Source of the DNA: an uncultured Dehalococcoidia bacterium
GTDB taxonomy: Bacteria > Chloroflexota > Dehalococcoidia > Lucifugimonadales > Lucifugimonadaceae
Length of the DNA stretch: 64,000 bases
Direction: 5' to 3'
Assembly: GCA_951812795.1 (NCBI GenBank)
Contig: OX638325.1
Coordinates: 1,302,001-1,366,000, forward strand
Shown here: one piece after another, positions 31,904 through 41,234 of the stretch
Layout: each line of letters begins with the position of its first letter
Numbering within the stretch: the first letter of the stretch is position 1
Made by a program: the position numbers and the translations under genes
The notes under the pieces: model-generated
Told to the model about the DNA's origin: nothing
Databases searched by the model: none
Seen by the model: only the letters and a program-made list of their open reading frames with translations

Positions 31904-32911
31904 ATGAAGGCTATGACTTGGCACGGCGGAAACCACTTCACACTCGACGAAGTCCCAGATCCTGAGTTAAAACCGGGTTTCGTGCTCGTCGAGATCGACA
32001 CGACTGGCATTTGCGGAACCGATGTCCACATCACCCAGGGCCTGTTTCCTTCGGAACCTCCAACCATCCTCGGTCACGAGGGCACCGGCATCATCGTCGA
32101 GGTCGGAGAAGGCGTCTCAAAAGAACGCATCGGTCAACGCGTAGTCTTGAACCACAGCGCTCACTGCTTCGAATGCTGGAACTGCCGGAACTGGAACGTC
32201 TCTCGCTGCCAGGTTGCTCCCATCTCCTCAAATGGCCTCTTCGCTCAATACGTTGCTCTACATTCCCGCACCGCTCTTCAACTGCCGGGAAGCCTAGATA
32301 TCGAGACCGCGGCCATGACTGAGCCGGCCGCTTGCTGCCTCTCCGGCGTGGAGATGCTCGACATCCCATACCGCGCCACTGGTCTAGTCATCGGCGCCGG
32401 CATTATGGGACTCTTCACGGCCGCCTTCATGAAGACTCACGGCGTTGAGACGCTCGTCGTATCCGAGCCGGTAAAGGTTCGCCGCGAAATGGCTAAGCAG
32501 TTCGGTGCCGAGATCCTCCATGATCCCAACGACGTTCCGCTTGAGGAAGTGATGGCCCAAGTAACCGATGAAGGCCGAGGATTCAGCGTTACTGCCGAGG
32601 CTGTCGGAAAACCAGAACTCATCGCCGCCTGCGTCAACGTGACGAAACCGCGCGGCCAGACCCTCATGATCGGAGTCTGCCCTGAAGGTTCGCCGCTCCC
32701 CGTCGACCTCTACGACATGCACTTCCGCGAGATAAAGCTCGTCGGAGCCTTTGGACGCGGAAACGTATTCCACCGCGTCCCTGGCGAACTCGACAAACTC
32801 AACCTCGAAAACGTGATCTCCGGCCGCTATCCCCTAGCCGATCTTCCCGATGCCATCACCGCCTCCGCCGAAGGCCTTGGTGTCAAATTCGCCATCAAAC
32901 CAAACGCATAA
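31904..32911 (+). CDS. Zinc-dependent MDR alcohol/polyol dehydrogenase, copy 1
   Basis: 335 aa. Catalytic zinc region GICGTD and GHEGTG; structural zinc ligands with spacing C-x2-C-x2-C-x7-C (CFECWNCRNWNVSRC); NAD-binding VIGAGIMG. AAGGAG precedes ATG 31904. First of three tandem paralogues with 24-base gaps. The cofactor half is nearly identical in all three, whereas the substrate half differs, suggesting related but distinct alcohol substrates. A polyol or sugar-acid substrate is inferred from the neighbouring dehydratase. Confidence 0.9.
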   Translation: MKAMTWHGGNHFTLDEVPDPELKPGFVLVEIDTTGICGTDVHITQGLFPSEPPTILGHEGTGIIVEVGEGVSKERIGQRVVLNHSAHCFECWNCRNWNVSRCQVAPISSNGLFAQYVALHSRTALQLPGSLDIETAAMTEPAACCLSGVEMLDIPYRATGLVIGAGIMGLFTAAFMKTHGVETLVVSEPVKVRREMAKQFGAEILHDPNDVPLEEVMAQVTDEGRGFSVTAEAVGKPELIAACVNVTKPRGQTLMIGVCPEGSPLPVDLYDMHFREIKLVGAFGRGNVFHRVPGELDKLNLENVISGRYPLADLPDAITASAEGLGVKFAIKPNA

Positions 32912-32935
32912 CCGCGAAATCTTGGGAGATCCAAT

Positions 32936-33943
32936 ATGAAGGCGATGACTTGGCAAGGCGGTAACCGGTTCACTCATGATGATGTGCCGGATCCAGTTGC
33001 GGAGCCGGGTTTCGTGGTGGTCAAGATGGACACGACTGGCATCTGCGGGACGGATGTGCACGCCACGCAGGGACTCTTCCCGTGGTACCCGCCGCAGATT
33101 ATGGGTCACGAAGGCTCTGGCGTGATCGTTGATGTCGGCGAGGGAGTCGCCAAGGACCGGATAGGTCAGCGAGTGGCGGTGAACCGCAAGGCGCAATGCT
33201 ACGAGTGTTGGAGCTGCCGGAACTGGAACACCTTCCGCTGCGAGGTCGCTCCGGAATCCCCGGACGGAATGTACGCAGAGTACATCGGCCTCGACGCCCG
33301 GGCCGCTATCGCGCTACCGGGCGATCTCGATATCGAGACTGCCGCGTTGACTGAACCCGCGTCGTGCTGTCTGGCCGGAGTCGAGACGCTCGACATCCCT
33401 TACCGCGCAACGGGCTTGGTCATCGGTGCCGGCGTCATGGGTCTCTTCACCGCCGCATTCATGAAGTCGCACGGGGTCGAGACCCTGGTGGTGTCGGAAC
33501 CGGTGACGGTGCGACGCGAGATTGCGACGCAGTTCGGGGCCGACATCCTGCACGATCCCCGCGACGTCCCGCTGTCTGAGGTCATCGCTGATGTAACCGA
33601 CGAAGGTCGCGGCTTCGATGTGACCGCCGAAGCGGTCGGCAAGCCGGAACTCGTGGCCGCTTGCATCAACGCCACCAAACCCCGAGGTCAGACGCTGATG
33701 ATCGGCGTCAGCCCGGAGGGATCCACGCTGCCGATCGATCTATACGACATGCATTTCCGCGAGATCAATTTGATGGGTTCCATGGGACGGGGGGACGTGT
33801 TCCATCGGGTACCGAACGAGTTGACGAAGCTCAATCTTGAAAATGTGATCTCCGGCCGCTACCCACTCGCCGAACTTCCCGACGCCATAACTGCCTCGGC
33901 GGAAGGTCTGGGTGTCAAGTTCGTAATCAAACCAAACGGTTAG
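32936..33943 (+). CDS. Zinc-dependent MDR alcohol/polyol dehydrogenase, copy 2
   Basis: 335 aa, same architecture as copy 1: GICGTD, GHEGSG, structural zinc cluster CYECWSCRNWNTFRC and VIGAGVMG. It has the most divergent N-terminal half of the three (for example EVAPESPDGMYAEYIG) and asparagine/methionine changes near the C-terminus (INLMGSMGRGDVFHRVP). GGGAG lies 7 nt before ATG 32936. Codon choice is more GC-rich than in copies 1 and 3. Confidence 0.9.
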   Translation: MKAMTWQGGNRFTHDDVPDPVAEPGFVVVKMDTTGICGTDVHATQGLFPWYPPQIMGHEGSGVIVDVGEGVAKDRIGQRVAVNRKAQCYECWSCRNWNTFRCEVAPESPDGMYAEYIGLDARAAIALPGDLDIETAALTEPASCCLAGVETLDIPYRATGLVIGAGVMGLFTAAFMKSHGVETLVVSEPVTVRREIATQFGADILHDPRDVPLSEVIADVTDEGRGFDVTAEAVGKPELVAACINATKPRGQTLMIGVSPEGSTLPIDLYDMHFREINLMGSMGRGDVFHRVPNELTKLNLENVISGRYPLAELPDAITASAEGLGVKFVIKPNG

Positions 33944-33967
33944 ACCTCAACGTTCAAGGAACTCGAC

Positions 33968-34975
33968 ATGAAGGCACAGACCTGGCACGGCGGCGCACAT
34001 TTTACTCTCGACGACATCCCGGATCCCAAACCGTCCCCCGATTACGTAGTGGTAGCAATCGACACCACCGGTATCTGCGGCACCGACGTGCATGTAACTC
34101 AAGGCCTGTTTCCAAAAGACCCGCCGCAGATTTTGGGCCACGAAAGTTCCGGCATCATCGTCGAAGTCGGCGATGGGGTCTCCAAAGATCGTATCGGTCA
34201 GCGCGTTTGCGTCAACCATCCGGCGAGCTGCTACGAGTGCTGGTATTGCCGAAACTGGAGCTTATGCCGGTGCGAAAACCAGCCAATGATTTCCAACGGC
34301 TATTTCGCGCAATACGCCGCCGTCGCATCGCGGTCTGCCGTTGAGATTCCGGAGACGCTCGATTTGGAGACCGCCGCTCTGACCGAACCGGCTGCGTGTT
34401 GCCTATCGGGTGTTGAAATGCTTGACATCCCGTACCGCGCTACCGGCCTCGTCATCGGCGCTGGCATCATGGGGCTATTCACCGCTGTTTTTTTGAAATC
34501 CCACGGCGTCGAAACGCTAGTCGTTTCGGAACCGGTCAAGATCAGACGCGAAATGGCCAAGCAATTCGGAGCCGACATCCTACACGACCCCAACGATGTA
34601 CCTCTTTCGGAGGTTGTCGCCGACGTCACAGACAACGGACGCGGGTTTAGCGTCACCGCCGAAGCTGTCGGCAAGCCCGAACTCGTCGCCGCCTGCGTCA
34701 ACTCCACAAAACCCCGCGGCCAGACCCTCATGATCGGCGTCAGCCCGGAAGGATCACCACTCCCCGTCGACCTCTACGACATGCACTACCGAGAAATTAA
34801 ACTCATCGGAGCTTTCCGCCAAGGCGACGTCACCCACCGCGTCCCAAGAGAACTCGCAAAACTAAACCTCGAAAACGTGATCTCCGGCTGCTACCCTCTA
34901 GCCGATTTACCCGAAGCGATCACCGCATCCGCCAAAGGCTTAGGCATCAAATTCGCCATCAAACCCAACCGCTAG
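33968..34975 (+). CDS. Zinc-dependent MDR alcohol/polyol dehydrogenase, copy 3
   Basis: 335 aa, GICGTD, GHESSG, CYECWYCRNWSLCRC and VIGAGIMG. AAGGA precedes ATG 33968. One of the residues near the active site differs from copies 1 and 2 (HESSG instead of HEG). The stop codon overlaps the end of the convergent PaREP1-like gene by 4 bases (CTAG). Confidence 0.9.
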   Translation: MKAQTWHGGAHFTLDDIPDPKPSPDYVVVAIDTTGICGTDVHVTQGLFPKDPPQILGHESSGIIVEVGDGVSKDRIGQRVCVNHPASCYECWYCRNWSLCRCENQPMISNGYFAQYAAVASRSAVEIPETLDLETAALTEPAACCLSGVEMLDIPYRATGLVIGAGIMGLFTAVFLKSHGVETLVVSEPVKIRREMAKQFGADILHDPNDVPLSEVVADVTDNGRGFSVTAEAVGKPELVAACVNSTKPRGQTLMIGVSPEGSPLPVDLYDMHYREIKLIGAFRQGDVTHRVPRELAKLNLENVISGCYPLADLPEAITASAKGLGIKFAIKPNR

Positions 34976-35337
34976 TTTTGTGCGTCGCGCGTCAACTCCA
35001 TCATGCGATTCACGAAACGGTGCACACGCAAACGATCGAGAACGAATTCGTAGTCTTCCATCATGCCGTTGTAGAAGTTCGAGTGGAAGTATCTAGCAAT
35101 AGAAAATCCGTCTGCGAGTGATGGCTCTTGGTATTCGGTTGCGAACTGCTCAACCGCCTGTACCATCGAACGGTGGGTCTTCGCCTCCATGCCCCGTCGC
35201 TTCATCTCGGCAATCACGACGTGTGACGCCGCACACCACAGCTTTTCGGATGCTTGGAGAATGTCGCCCGCGTCAAACTCTCGGTCAGCATCTTCGAGGA
35301 ACTTCTGGGCGGTCTCGATGTGTTCCGTCGTCAGCAT
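34972..35337 (-). CDS. PaREP1/HEPN-like small helical protein
   Basis: 121 aa, all-helical. The motif GDILQASEKLWCAASHVV resembles the PaREP1/DUF86-like HEPN group of small helical proteins; the function of this group is not established. No catalytic R-x4-6-H motif of HEPN RNases is evident. Start ATG 35337 has a weak SD. It overlaps the stop of the convergent dehydrogenase. The family call is tentative. Confidence 0.6.
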   Translation of the reverse strand: MLTTEHIETAQKFLEDADREFDAGDILQASEKLWCAASHVVIAEMKRRGMEAKTHRSMVQAVEQFATEYQEPSLADGFSIARYFHSNFYNGMMEDYEFVLDRLRVHRFVNRMMELTRDAQN

Positions 35338-35399: not shown

Positions 35400-36992
35400 T
35401 TACCGCCCATAAAGCTCCGTTCCACGATGGAACGCGAACCAGCCAAACCAGAACGAAACATTCGAAGGAACAATCTCCAACACGGTCGACTCGGCCTCGG
35501 CGTCAGTCAGCCTCTCTCGGCTAACATCCCATTCCTTGCCGTTGTTGTCTAAAACCTTGTCAGGAAACCCGGCCTCAGGCGCGTCATCGGGCAATCGGAA
35601 TTCCAGACCATCCCGATTTTCAAAAATGTGAGCGTCAGAAGACGTTGCCGAAGCAATGACCACGACCTCGATGTCGCCAATTCTGTCGTGAATGATTCGC
35701 TCCTGGCGCAGCAGCCCGATCGGATACGCCTTTTCAACACCGTTCAGGTTCACACCCAACACCTCTGCTTTAGGCGCCAACACGTCATCCCGGTATGCGA
35801 TGGGGAACATCGTCTCAGGGTCGGCGCGGTATGCGAAGTAAATCGAGCTATCGTCGTCTTCGTGCGTATACGACCGCGCGGTGTAAAGTGCACCTTCACG
35901 CGTGATCACGGTGGTATCGGGATGCTCCGCGCGCCAATCTCCCCAAGTGGTTCTTGCGGTTGGGAAGTATCCGAGCTCAATTCCACTCCCGGCTAGTTCA
36001 CCGATAATCGGGGTACCAGTGAATTGATGCCACAAAGAACGCGTCGCCCGGTCATACATCACCTTGTTGCTGCGGAAGAGCAATCCGGACGTTCCGAACG
36101 TCGTTGGCTCCCCGTTGATGTAGGCTCGATACCCGATCGCGCTGTTGCAAAGCGTTCACCACGTGAGCGATAACGGCTCACCTCCCAGAACATCATTCAC
36201 CAACTCATGTGCATTCACGATTCGCAACGGATACGCCCGGTGCTCACCGTTTATCGAAACACCGATCACACGCTCGTCATCCTCCAAATATTCTGCTCCT
36301 TCATCGTCGACATTGGCATGTGCCGGATTCTCGAGCGGAGGTATGCCGTCAGGGATGACTCCGCCCCACTCGACCTCCGTCAAATCGACGTCCGATTGGC
36401 CACTCAAGGCCGGGGACAGAAACGCACCGAACCGCCCGTCGATCTGCCGCAGATAGTTGATCTTCCACTCGCCGTATTCAGACGGCACAGGGTACTCGTC
36501 GCTATGTCTTCCAATCCATTCCGACCACGCCTTCCAGTCATCACCGAAAGCTGTTTGCCCCGTCAATTCCACTAGAGTCACTATCGCAGCTGTGATAATG
36601 TCGCGCGAAAAATAATTCCGAAGCGACTCTATGATCACGCGAACCTGCGACGTGTCCTTCTCCTCCCGAATCCTCTCAAGCGCGTCCAAGGTCCGAGTGT
36701 TCAACGGCCCGAAGCCCGGAGAGAGGTCGAATCCCGCGAATACCAGGTACATCATCGTGTTCGAGTCGTAGGGCACCGGCGTCCGCGTCGGCGGCACATT
36801 CGGATCCGTTTCAGCTGTGGTCTCCGTAGAAGTAATGATCGTAAACACATCGGCCAGAGCCGGGGTCGGACTTGCTACGTTGACTGTAGAGCTCCGATCC
36901 GCCACCCAAGACATCGACACGAGCAAAACCACCGCCAATACCGCCAACGCTCCAAAAAGCGCAACGACTGACACGATGTTTTTGCTGTTCAT
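35400..36992 (-). CDS. DUF3179 membrane-anchored protein with in-frame UGA, probable selenoprotein
   Basis: One 530-residue reading frame interrupted only by TGA at 36158-36156 (codon 279). N-terminal signal anchor (about residues 7-30), a linker, then a DUF3179 domain running from about residue 245 to the end. The family's conserved CPLC/CTLC motif reads SLTW-U-TLCNS: the UGA replaces the first Cys, giving U279-x2-C282. Upstream (HRAYPLRIVNAHELVND) and downstream (FGTSGLLFRSNKVMYDRAT, FWFGWFAFHRGTELY) parts both match the family and are in one frame. A SECIS-like hairpin lies 13 nt after the UGA. ATG 36992 overlaps the FGGY kinase stop (ATGA). Alternative: a point-mutated pseudogene. The function of DUF3179 is unknown; a UxxC motif suggests redox chemistry. 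Confidence 0.8.
36124..36142 (-). promoter_or_regulatory. SECIS-like hairpin downstream of the in-frame UGA
   Basis: Read on the minus strand: stem CGAT/ATCG, loop CGGGT, a G-A mismatch and two further pairs (GC/GC). The loop begins 20 nt after the UGA and has G at position 2, in agreement with the described bacterial SECIS rule (loop 16-37 nt downstream, G within the first two loop bases). The stem is short, so support is moderate. Confidence 0.5.
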
Positions 36993-38503
36993 CTCACGAG
37001 TGCCTTGCTAGCTCGGCCGACATTGGGATAAATCCCAACTGCGACAGCCCCCGTGAGAGCTGCGCCTACCGCCGCCTCTTCCCGAACCATGCCGATCGAA
37101 ATCGATCCACCAAACGCCTCTTCCAAACACTGTCGTAGAGCCGCATTAAGGCGCAATCCATTACCTGAACCGACGAATCTTTCTCTGGTTCCGGCTCCCA
37201 GTTCAATCGCGCTTCGATACGACTTGGCGAGCTCTGACGCCATCGAACGGAATACCGCCAAAGCCATCGAAGCAGGCGTGAAATTGCCCGGCGTTATGCC
37301 AGTGAACGTACCCCGAGCATCCGGTCGTTCGCGTGATCCTGTGAAGAGTGCAGATGAAGTCATAGCGTCAGTAGATTGATCGGATAAAACCGCTTCAGCA
37401 AGTACCGCGAGTCTCTCGTAAACCCTGTCTTCATCTACGTCGTCAACGTCGAACACGGTTTGTGCTGTCCGCATGAAAAAGTCCTTCAACGCACGAAACG
37501 TCCGTCCACCAACCACACCGACACCTGCCAATAGAAAACCGCTCTCAACATGCGGACGGATCTCCAACCATCCGTGATCGATCGAACCATCGCTGGGATC
37601 CCGCTTTAGGGACGACAGATCCCCAAGGAACACCGTCGCTTGCCCGCCCGTCCCGATGTTGATCGCCACCGTGTCGTCCGCATCGTCGACCGCACCGACA
37701 AACGCACATTGATGATCGCCAGATGGGACGGATACAGGCGTCCCTGGCCGTATGCCAGTCAGACCACTAAATTCGTCCGTCAACCCACCGATAACGCTGC
37801 ACGAATCCACGATCTCCGGAAACAATCCACGGCCGATTTCAAGTTCACCGATCAACTCATCATTCCAGTCGCGCTTGGGAACATTGAGAACGCCCCAACC
37901 AGCTGCGTCGGTCGCATCAGTCACCGGCCGCTTGGAGCCAACTAACTTGTGCGCCAGGAATTCTGGCGCAGTGATAGCCGCCTCGGCGTTAGAATGCATC
38001 ATGCCCATGTAGTCCAACCAAAACAACGTCGGGGCCGTGTATCCAGTTACGATCGGACATCCCGCATCTCTGAACGACGGCAATCCCGCACCTCTCCGTG
38101 TCGCTCCGCCCTTCGATGCCATCAAACCCAAGAAATCACCACCATCGCCGTCAACCACGTCTTTGCATCGCTGGTCCTGCCAAGCGATAAACGGCCCAAT
38201 CGGCGAACCATCACCATCCAACAGTTGGCAACCCTGCTGCTGTCCGGTAACCCCGATCGCGACCACGTCCACAAGATCCAATCCCGAACGCAGCTCGTCA
38301 ACGGTTCGGACGACGCACGCGACCATCGCTTCGATATCCCACTCCGATCTGCCAATGACTCGATCGTGTGTCGACGTAGTCTCGGCATCGTTGGGCGCAG
38401 AAAGTGAGGCAACCATCTCGGCTGGGCCATCATCGACACGAACCGCAACGACCGTCACCGAAGTTGAACCAAGATCTATGCCTAACGCCACGCGCATGGG
38501 CAT
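36989..38503 (-). CDS. FGGY-family carbohydrate kinase
   Basis: 504 aa ATP-dependent sugar kinase of the xylulokinase/sedoheptulokinase group. N-terminal phosphate-binding GIDLGSTSVTVVAV (8-21), VTGQQQG, WQDQRC, substrate-loop SGDHQC, and adenosine-binding INIGTGGQAT and GSGNGLRLNAALRQC. The substrate is uncertain: the QQQG in place of QMHG and the DHQC segment argue against a standard xylulokinase. Its stop overlaps the DUF3179 start by 4 bases (ATGA), so the two are translationally coupled. Confidence 0.85.
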   Translation of the reverse strand: MPMRVALGIDLGSTSVTVVAVRVDDGPAEMVASLSAPNDAETTSTHDRVIGRSEWDIEAMVACVVRTVDELRSGLDLVDVVAIGVTGQQQGCQLLDGDGSPIGPFIAWQDQRCKDVVDGDGGDFLGLMASKGGATRRGAGLPSFRDAGCPIVTGYTAPTLFWLDYMGMMHSNAEAAITAPEFLAHKLVGSKRPVTDATDAAGWGVLNVPKRDWNDELIGELEIGRGLFPEIVDSCSVIGGLTDEFSGLTGIRPGTPVSVPSGDHQCAFVGAVDDADDTVAINIGTGGQATVFLGDLSSLKRDPSDGSIDHGWLEIRPHVESGFLLAGVGVVGGRTFRALKDFFMRTAQTVFDVDDVDEDRVYERLAVLAEAVLSDQSTDAMTSSALFTGSRERPDARGTFTGITPGNFTPASMALAVFRSMASELAKSYRSAIELGAGTRERFVGSGNGLRLNAALRQCLEEAFGGSISIGMVREEAAVGAALTGAVAVGIYPNVGRASKALVR

Positions 38504-38879: not shown

Positions 38880-41234
38880 CTAAGTTCCGCGCCTCAACCT
38901 TAGAGCATTCAAAGACACGGACAATGACGAGAGCGCCATTGCCGCGGCAGCAGCGACTGGGCTGAGGAAGCCGCTTTCGCTGATGATCATTCGGAGATAT
39001 TCGGGCGGCGGCGAATCTGCGAATACCGGATGCAGCACTCCCGCTGCGATTGGAATCAGAACCACGTTATACGCGAACGCCCAGAAAAGATTTTGCCGGA
39101 TCACTCGCACCGTTGCCCGGCTTATCGAAATCAGACGCGGTACTGCGGTCGGTTCATTGTTGACCAACGTCACATCTGCCGACTCGATTGCGATGTCGGA
39201 ACCGCTCGCCATCGCGACTCCTACATGCGCGGCCGCAAGTGCCGGCCCGTCGTTGATGCCGTCGCCGATCATTGCCACTTTGCGGTCTTGATTAGATAGT
39301 GCGCTCACCCGAGTAGCTTTTTCGATTGGCGAAACTTGGGCTTCAACGTGTTCGATGCCAACAGCTTCCGCGACGACCTTCGCGACCTCCGCTCGGTCTC
39401 CAGTGATGAGATGCGACTCAACGCCCATTTCGCGCAGCGATTCGACGGCTGACATCGCATCGTCGCGTATGGCGTCCTGCAATCCGATCGCGGCGACCGG
39501 CTGACCATCGATCGAGATCGTCACCGGTGTTTGGGCGCTCGCTTCTATCCGCTCGACAGCGTTGAAGATCTCGCTGTCTGCATCGAGTGAGATCGCTGAC
39601 GGATTCATCACGGCGACGACTAGATCATCGACCAACGCGTACACGCCCTGACCAGTGATCGATTGGAATCCTTCAGATTCGGGGATTTCGAGGCTCCGGT
39701 TGCGCGCTTCGCTGACGATCGCCGTTGCTACCGGGTGCTCGGAATAGACCTCAACCGCGGCAACAACGCTCAAAACCTCGTCTTTGGAAAGAGCGGAAGT
39801 AGAGTCGACGTGGATCGAGACCACTCGGGGTTTCCCCGCAGTTAGAGTTCCGGTCTTGTCAAACGCCACCGCGTCAACGTTTGCGGCTCGTTCCAGAGTC
39901 GTGGCGTCCTTGATCAATATCCCATGCTCTGCGGCGCGACCGATGCCGGCTACCACCGCCGTTGGTGTCGCCAATCCCAGCGCGCATGGACATGCGATCA
40001 CAAAAACCGTTACTGAGATCAACAACGCGTTCGGTAATGACGGGTCCGGCGCCACCACGAGCCAAAATAGGAACGACGCCAAACCTGCTACGAGGACGGC
40101 GGGCACAAACCTCGCCGTCACCCGGTCAACAAATCGTTCGATAGGTGCACGAGTCGCTTGGGCCCGCTCTACTTGGCGAATGATTTGGGCGAGAAGCGTG
40201 CGCTCACCGATAGTTGCGACTTTGGCCTTGCAAGCGGTCGCGATGTTCAACGTCCCAGCAAAAATCGCGTCACCCCGTTTCTTCGTCACGGGCATGCTCT
40301 CGCCGGTGAGCATCGACTCGTCGATCTCGGCGGCGCCTTCAATCATTCTGGCATCTGTCGGTACGCGTTCGCCCGGACGGACCACAACCGTATCTCCAAC
40401 CTCAATATCTCCGATGTCAACCTCCACCACGCCGTTCGCACGTTCCACAAGGGCTGTCCGCGGTTGCAATTCGATCAGCATCCGAACCGCCTCACTTGCT
40501 CGCAATCGAGTCCTTCCCTCCAACCACCGCCCCAACGAAACCAACCCGATGATCGCCGCAGGTACTTCGAAATATGTTCCGATGTGATGTTCCGGGACGA
40601 CGAAGCTGGCGGCATCCGACCATAAAGTTGAATCCCCGAGTATCAGCTGAGATACCGTCACCAGAGCACTGTACGCGAACGCAACCGAAGTGCCGACAAC
40701 AACCAACGTGTTCATGTTGGATGTTTTGCGCTTTGCAGCCGCCCACGCCGACCTGTAGAAAGGAGCGGCGACTCGCAGCTGGATCGGAGTGGCGACCACC
40801 AAGAATAGCAGATTCAGCGCATAAGCCGGAACATCGGGCGCAAACATAGACCGCGCCATCGTCGCGATCATGATCGATAACATCGCCGCGATGCTCACGA
40901 TCGCACCGTTTCGAACCGCCACAAGCTCTGATCGTTGCGCTTCGAACCTAGATTCGTGGCCGCTTCCCAACGCATCATCTGCCACATCCGCCGACCTCGC
41001 CGACACATCGATGCCGTAACCTGCGTCGCTCACTGCTGCAGAGATGGCACCGAACATCTCGCCGCCACTTTCCAAAGTGTCCGCGTTCGCGTCCGAGAAG
41101 TTGATGTTAGCGGAATTGGTCGCCAACGACACGTCGGCGGAATCGACGCCTGGAACCGACGCTATCGCCTCGGTAACGTGCGAAACGCACGCGGCGCACG
41201 TCATTCCGCGGATGTAAATGGTCTTTGAAACCAT
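38880..41234 (-). CDS. copA: Copper-translocating P1B-type ATPase
   Basis: Exports Cu(I) using ATP. 784 aa. One N-terminal HMA domain with MTCAAC (C13, C16), eight predicted helices, actuator motif LTGESMPV, the transmembrane CPC metal site (VIACPCALGLATPTA), phosphorylation motif DKTGT, SEHPVATAI and the hinge GDGINDGPAL. The CPC plus MTCAAC pair indicates Cu(I)/Ag(I). ATG 41234 has an AGGGGG site 8 nt upstream. The glutaredoxin 30 bases downstream is on the same strand; both could serve in metal stress. Confidence 0.95.
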   Translation of the reverse strand: MVSKTIYIRGMTCAACVSHVTEAIASVPGVDSADVSLATNSANINFSDANADTLESGGEMFGAISAAVSDAGYGIDVSARSADVADDALGSGHESRFEAQRSELVAVRNGAIVSIAAMLSIMIATMARSMFAPDVPAYALNLLFLVVATPIQLRVAAPFYRSAWAAAKRKTSNMNTLVVVGTSVAFAYSALVTVSQLILGDSTLWSDAASFVVPEHHIGTYFEVPAAIIGLVSLGRWLEGRTRLRASEAVRMLIELQPRTALVERANGVVEVDIGDIEVGDTVVVRPGERVPTDARMIEGAAEIDESMLTGESMPVTKKRGDAIFAGTLNIATACKAKVATIGERTLLAQIIRQVERAQATRAPIERFVDRVTARFVPAVLVAGLASFLFWLVVAPDPSLPNALLISVTVFVIACPCALGLATPTAVVAGIGRAAEHGILIKDATTLERAANVDAVAFDKTGTLTAGKPRVVSIHVDSTSALSKDEVLSVVAAVEVYSEHPVATAIVSEARNRSLEIPESEGFQSITGQGVYALVDDLVVAVMNPSAISLDADSEIFNAVERIEASAQTPVTISIDGQPVAAIGLQDAIRDDAMSAVESLREMGVESHLITGDRAEVAKVVAEAVGIEHVEAQVSPIEKATRVSALSNQDRKVAMIGDGINDGPALAAAHVGVAMASGSDIAIESADVTLVNNEPTAVPRLISISRATVRVIRQNLFWAFAYNVVLIPIAAGVLHPVFADSPPPEYLRMIISESGFLSPVAAAAAMALSSLSVSLNALRLRRGT

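Follow-up and report, generated by a model that had tools for sequence, protein, structure and literature searches.

Two papers (PMC9312934, PMC13188914) already count DUF3179 (PF11376), with the motif UxxC/T, among the selenoprotein families, and in them the entry is traced back to Zhang and Gladyshev (2007) and an Olavius algarvensis symbiont. The name 'DUF3179 domain-containing (seleno)protein' also occurs in NCBI annotation. One protein so named, WP_254274462.1 from a haloarchaeal plasmid, is a homologue of the protein described here: about 70% of the length aligns at 28-30% identity, and the match extends into the N-terminal part. Its motif is TYCTLC, with Cys rather than Sec. A different kind of likeness is offered by the Rieske-fold proteins (NirD and Rieske ferredoxins), whose fold is resembled by the predicted fold of the first DUF3179 repeat, whereas DUF3179 proteins have no canonical 2Cys-2His cluster site, are built as a tandem repeat, carry a UxxC motif and show no detectable sequence homology to them.

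The gene examined here lies in a window of 64,000 nucleotides, the whole stretch of DNA analysed, which belongs to one contig of 2.61 Mb (OX638325.1) from an uncultured Dehalococcoidia bacterium. Its product shares with the known DUF3179 selenoproteins the Pfam family and the Sec position in UxxC and, as far as a comparison by their listings goes, differs from them by SAR202-type hosts, by several Sec paralogues per genome and by an added N-terminal helical region. The doubt about novelty expressed in the initial annotation was justified: the Sec reading of DUF3179 is already known, and the gene of the window is a well-supported addition rather than a discovery. What it contributes is the expansion of the family in SAR202-type genomes and, at the level of prediction, an architecture of tandem repeats and a fold which is Rieske-like yet lacks the cluster ligands. 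In the literature searched, no paper joining SAR202 with selenoproteins was found. Gene callers treating TGA only as a stop split this gene, as the list of open reading frames of the window did, and can thereby easily overlook the Sec forms of DUF3179 in SAR202. The features of the locus are collected in Table 1.

Table 1. Features of the DUF3179 locus, numbered from the first nucleotide of the window.
Feature	Positions	Strand	Basis or remark
Putative DUF3179 selenoprotein gene	35400..36992	-	530 codons counting the TGA as Sec; no other stops
N-terminal membrane helix, residues 3-36	36885..36986	-	AlphaFold2 secondary structure, alignment
DUF3179 domain (PF11376), residues 215-523	35424..36350	-	Pfam match spanning the TGA in one piece
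DUF3179 repeat 1, residues 248-353	35934..36251	-	Rieske-like predicted fold; holds U279/C282
In-frame TGA, predicted Sec (U279)	36156..36158	-	Codon 279; first position of the U/CxxC motif
Cys282, second residue of UxxC	36147..36149	-	Invariant in the 38-sequence alignment
Predicted bSECIS hairpin	36124..36142	-	Covariation in relatives; Sec versus Cys contrast; energies
DUF3179 repeat 2, residues 416-511	35460..35747	-	Homologous to repeat 1, without the UxxC motif
FGGY-family carbohydrate kinase, upstream	36989..38503	-	Order conserved in genus
Heavy-metal (HMA, E1-E2) P-type ATPase, further upstream	38880..41234	-	Order conserved in genus

Codon 279 and its exchange with cysteine

The gene runs on the minus strand from an ATG at 36992-36990 to a final stop at 35402-35400, with 278 codons ahead of the TGA and 251 behind it, as the initial annotation had counted. 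That annotation had also described one DUF3179 domain split only by the TGA, and the Pfam match does cross this codon, at 1.6e-77 and 261.2 bits against a curated cut-off of 27 and over profile positions 2-290 of 292, which places the protein in PF11376; an NCBIfam search gave no match for it. A window-wide scan for in-frame TGAs flanked on either side by a long open frame returned six others besides codon 279, all of which were rejected because their context resembles that of non-coding frames, leaving the DUF3179 case as the only convincing one.

Elsewhere in the window TGA is a normal stop, ending three of the ten large open reading frames checked; the stop of the FGGY kinase (36991-36989) is a TGA. 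These stops refute a general reassignment of TGA in the organism, for example to Trp, which had been dismissed from the outset on the same grounds. Two distant paralogues in relatives do have Trp (TGG) at the Sec column, but the usual exchange partner is Cys and the genome has a tRNA-Sec with a TCA anticodon, and the probability of such a reassignment is negligible.

The closest named relative, with a protein 92% identical, is SAR202 cluster bacterium bin127 (MPNN01000002.1), a genome bin recovered from the sponge Aplysina aerophoba (PMC5649159), and orthologues are 65-92% identical across the full or nearly full length. A TGA at the same codon is found in all 22 nearest Chloroflexota homologues, which come from independent assemblies, and in many more distant ones. 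This identity rules out a TGC misread as TGA and makes a sequencing error or a plain nonsense mutation of a Cys codon extremely improbable, even though TGC or TGT does stand at the same place in other DUF3179 proteins, two proteobacterial homologues (one TGC, one TGT) among them.

DUF3179 sequences, mostly of SAR202-type Chloroflexota, were gathered from 60 genomes and made non-redundant. At exactly the column of codon 279, where the initial annotation had located the first Cys of the CxxC motif, 78 rows have TGA and 32 have a Cys codon (TGC or TGT). The few remaining rows come from second repeats or diverged paralogues and have Ser, Trp or other residues; the redox residue would therefore not be essential in every member of the family. 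All but one of the in-frame TGAs within the DUF3179 domain fall at the Sec column. TGA and Cys forms interchange on the DUF3179 tree: when the tree is built with the Sec column left out, seven changes between Sec and the rest are needed, of which at least four are forced by well-supported (starred) branches. One gene of the set (L091, G017:C1:2386900-2389100) has two in-frame TGAs: the first, at a Gly conserved in relatives, lies 8 codons upstream of the second, which occupies the Sec column. The first would be an error, a second Sec or a sign of decay.

When close relatives were inspected for degraded frames, the frames downstream of the TGA proved intact and under purifying selection, with dN/dS of 0.08-0.14 (0.138 against the nearest orthologue L024, 0.082 against L025 and 0.111 against L029), values not above those of the N-terminal part.

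Sec machinery and distribution across genomes

The genome was searched for selA, selB, selC and selD, as the initial annotation had suggested, and the machinery is complete, with tRNA-Sec (67.8 bits, anticodon tca), selA (520 bits), selB (325 bits) and selD (366 bits), the last carrying an in-frame TGA of its own. Together with the UGA/Cys alternation, the selected downstream frames and the TGA common to the 22 nearest homologues, this supports the Sec interpretation first proposed, and on sequence grounds it is very probable that the gene of the window inserts Sec at UGA-279 and encodes a DUF3179 selenoprotein. SelA and SelB are enriched in sponge symbionts (PMC5649159).

A scan of the whole genome with the hairpin model, which is not a selenoprotein census, recovered the three DUF3179 genes with TGA and no other significant match. 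Further DUF3179 genes with TGA at the Sec column lie in the same genome at G000:C1:2057713-2058621 (L048, L082), about 3 kb from selD, and at 792033-792890 (L051, L084), and a fourth copy (916427-917401) has Ser at that column.

Among genomes at least 90% complete, selA is present in all 22 which have the TGA form, and three which lack selA (G011, G012 and G030) have no DUF3179. The TGA-bearing genomes without a full selA (G001, G003, G027 and G028) are bins of 61-88% completeness. Over all 60 genomes the association of selA with the TGA form (26/30 versus 20/30) is weak when taken alone, because many Sec-using relatives do not have the TGA form of DUF3179. No phage homologues were found.

Some SAR202-type genomes (G034, G019, G028 and G036) contain up to 11-12 DUF3179 matches each, with Sec and Cys copies side by side, and some copies are arranged in tandem (L107, L110). 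The presence of both forms in one genome makes the advantage of Sec over Cys testable by comparison. Nine genomes of the same bacterial family (G010, G011, G012, G014, G020, G021, G029, G030 and G032) are small, 1.0-1.5 Mb, and have neither a selA over the cut-off, nor tRNA-Sec, nor DUF3179; the Sec trait was possibly lost in them with genome reduction.

A candidate bSECIS hairpin downstream of the TGA

The predicted hairpin of the window starts 13 nt past the TGA and has its loop, CGGGU (36135-36131), 20 nt past it; the arms (36142-36136 and 36130-36124) form an upper stem of 4 bp followed by a mismatch and then 2 bp. The published bSECIS model calls for a loop of 3-9 nt with a G in the first two positions, an upper stem of 4-16 bp, a spacing of 16-37 nt and a minimum free energy of -7.5 kcal/mol or lower (PMC13188914, Fig 2), although some bSECIS elements fail it (PMC13188914). 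The 19-nt hairpin of the window agrees with the loop, G-in-loop, stem-length and spacing rules and misses the energy rule at -3.7 kcal/mol, so that of the SECIS proposed in the initial annotation the position stands and the element is borne out at family level, while the claimed fit to the rule holds for geometry and fails for energy.

In the nearest orthologue (L024) the hairpin reaches -9.4 kcal/mol, with a pairing probability of 0.99 against about 0.07 in the window. The difference comes from an A at 36126 (minus strand), which breaks a G-C pair kept in orthologues, where a pairing C is found; the change is synonymous, in an Arg codon, and may be a mistake in the assembly, a mismatch that is tolerated or the beginning of decay. 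Taken alone, the window hairpin is no better than synonymous reshuffles (z of about 0) or dinucleotide shuffles, and since the folding of this single sequence is unsupportive, the case for a SECIS element rests on relatives.

Sec members of the family have a common, covarying predicted hairpin 13-31 nt past the TGA, which the Cys members lack. A common stem of up to seven pairs, extending from +13 to +31 and mostly closing a CGGGU or CGUGU loop at +20, is present in 54 of the 78 Sec rows, and hairpins of a similar kind, set slightly out of this register, occur in other clades. Double-sided changes occur in six of the seven stem pairs across 19 distinct rows, although these were preselected for at least six pairs and the percentage paired is hence biased; stem covariation is 0.581, against 0.138 when shuffled and at most 0.113 when slid. 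In unselected rows, the hairpins of Sec members are more stable than those obtained by synonymous resampling (mean z -2.09), and those of Cys members are not (0.00). The Gly codon of the loop is GGG in all 27 Sec rows with Gly there, and among the window genes counted no Gly codon is rarer than GGG (92 of 739).

The single synonymous change, which disrupts the stem at its third pair from the base, is what one would expect if an ancestral Sec insertion were in early decay, with the hairpin damaged and mostly a membrane-bound fragment of 278 residues being made. Such decay appears improbable, however: dN/dS after the TGA is low even against the closest orthologue (0.138), 251 codons follow without a frameshift or further stop, the upper stem and the GGG loop are retained, shorter stems are found in some relatives too, and a single-base assembly error could also account for the A. 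We therefore favour continuing Sec insertion at UGA-279. Orthologues with strong and with weak hairpins make the minimum SECIS needed by SelB testable by comparison.

Predicted fold, putative function and neighbourhood

The AlphaFold2 model of the full protein (mean pLDDT 87) begins with a membrane-type helix at the N terminus, followed by a helical region and the two-repeat DUF3179 part. In the alignment, several homologues have lipoprotein-like N termini in place of the membrane helix, which suggests that the DUF3179 domain is exported and probably faces outward.

The two repeats are homologous (hhalign probability 99.7, E 7e-26). Modelled alone (pLDDT 94), repeat 1 is predicted to have the overall Rieske fold: its best 50 structural matches are without exception Rieske-fold proteins, with Z 6.7-9.1 over 82-108 aligned residues, and NirD-type proteins match it with Z 9.1 and an rmsd of 3.0-3.4 over 97-98 residues; Foldseek gave weak E-values, the best being 0.027. 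In the alignment of 38 sequences the CxH and CxxH cluster ligands of Rieske proteins are not conserved, Cys is invariant only at 279 and 282, and there is no invariant His. Solved structures, searched by sequence, yielded no relative. When profiles were compared by hhalign with the Rieske proteins encoded in the same genome, no homology was detected (probability 1%), and we accordingly claim similarity of predicted fold, not homology. The C-terminal part is thus predicted to comprise two Rieske-like beta domains in tandem, both lacking iron-sulphur ligands, and this offers a structural clue to a domain of unknown function.

In the proposed mechanism, the ribosome at UGA-279, guided by SelB and the hairpin just downstream, would insert Sec from a tRNA-Sec whose charging proceeds through SelA and draws on selenophosphate supplied by SelD. 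The product would be a protein of 530 residues anchored by its N-terminal helix at the outer face of the membrane, in which U279-x-x-C282 of repeat 1 would most likely form a reversible selenenylsulfide/selenol redox pair. By analogy with established selenoproteins, such a redox role is reasonably likely, and the protein may be regarded as an exported selenol/thiol redox protein. More tentatively, DUF3179 may represent an exported module of two cluster-free Rieske-fold domains with a UxxC/CxxC centre, expanded into multiple Sec and Cys copies in SAR202-type genomes.

UxxC/CxxC pairs can also bind soft metals, and U279 and C282 might instead hold copper or mercury outside the membrane, a change of function which would leave Sec insertion unaffected. 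The heavy-metal P-type ATPase two genes upstream, in an order conserved within the genus, would suit this role, but the ATPase is absent from the neighbourhood in the other clades examined and the domain has no other invariant Cys or His, and we consider metal binding unlikely and retain the redox role.

The ATG of the DUF3179 gene overlaps the stop of the FGGY kinase as ATGA (36992-36989), which fits a coupled start. Among the clades examined, the order of kinase and P-type ATPase is kept within the genus only; in other clades the neighbours are tautomerase-like proteins, a TPP enzyme, an ABC transporter or a GMC oxidoreductase, so that no common pathway can be read from them. Directly downstream of the DUF3179 gene, on the minus strand at 34972-35337, is a gene for a small protein of the PaREP1 family, a Pfam family named from archaea, with a counterpart at the same place in one other locus only (L026). 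Convergent with the DUF3179 gene, on the plus strand at 31904-34975, three zinc-dependent alcohol dehydrogenase paralogues, each of 335 residues, stand in tandem, and tandem copies of this kind are also found in relatives within the genus.
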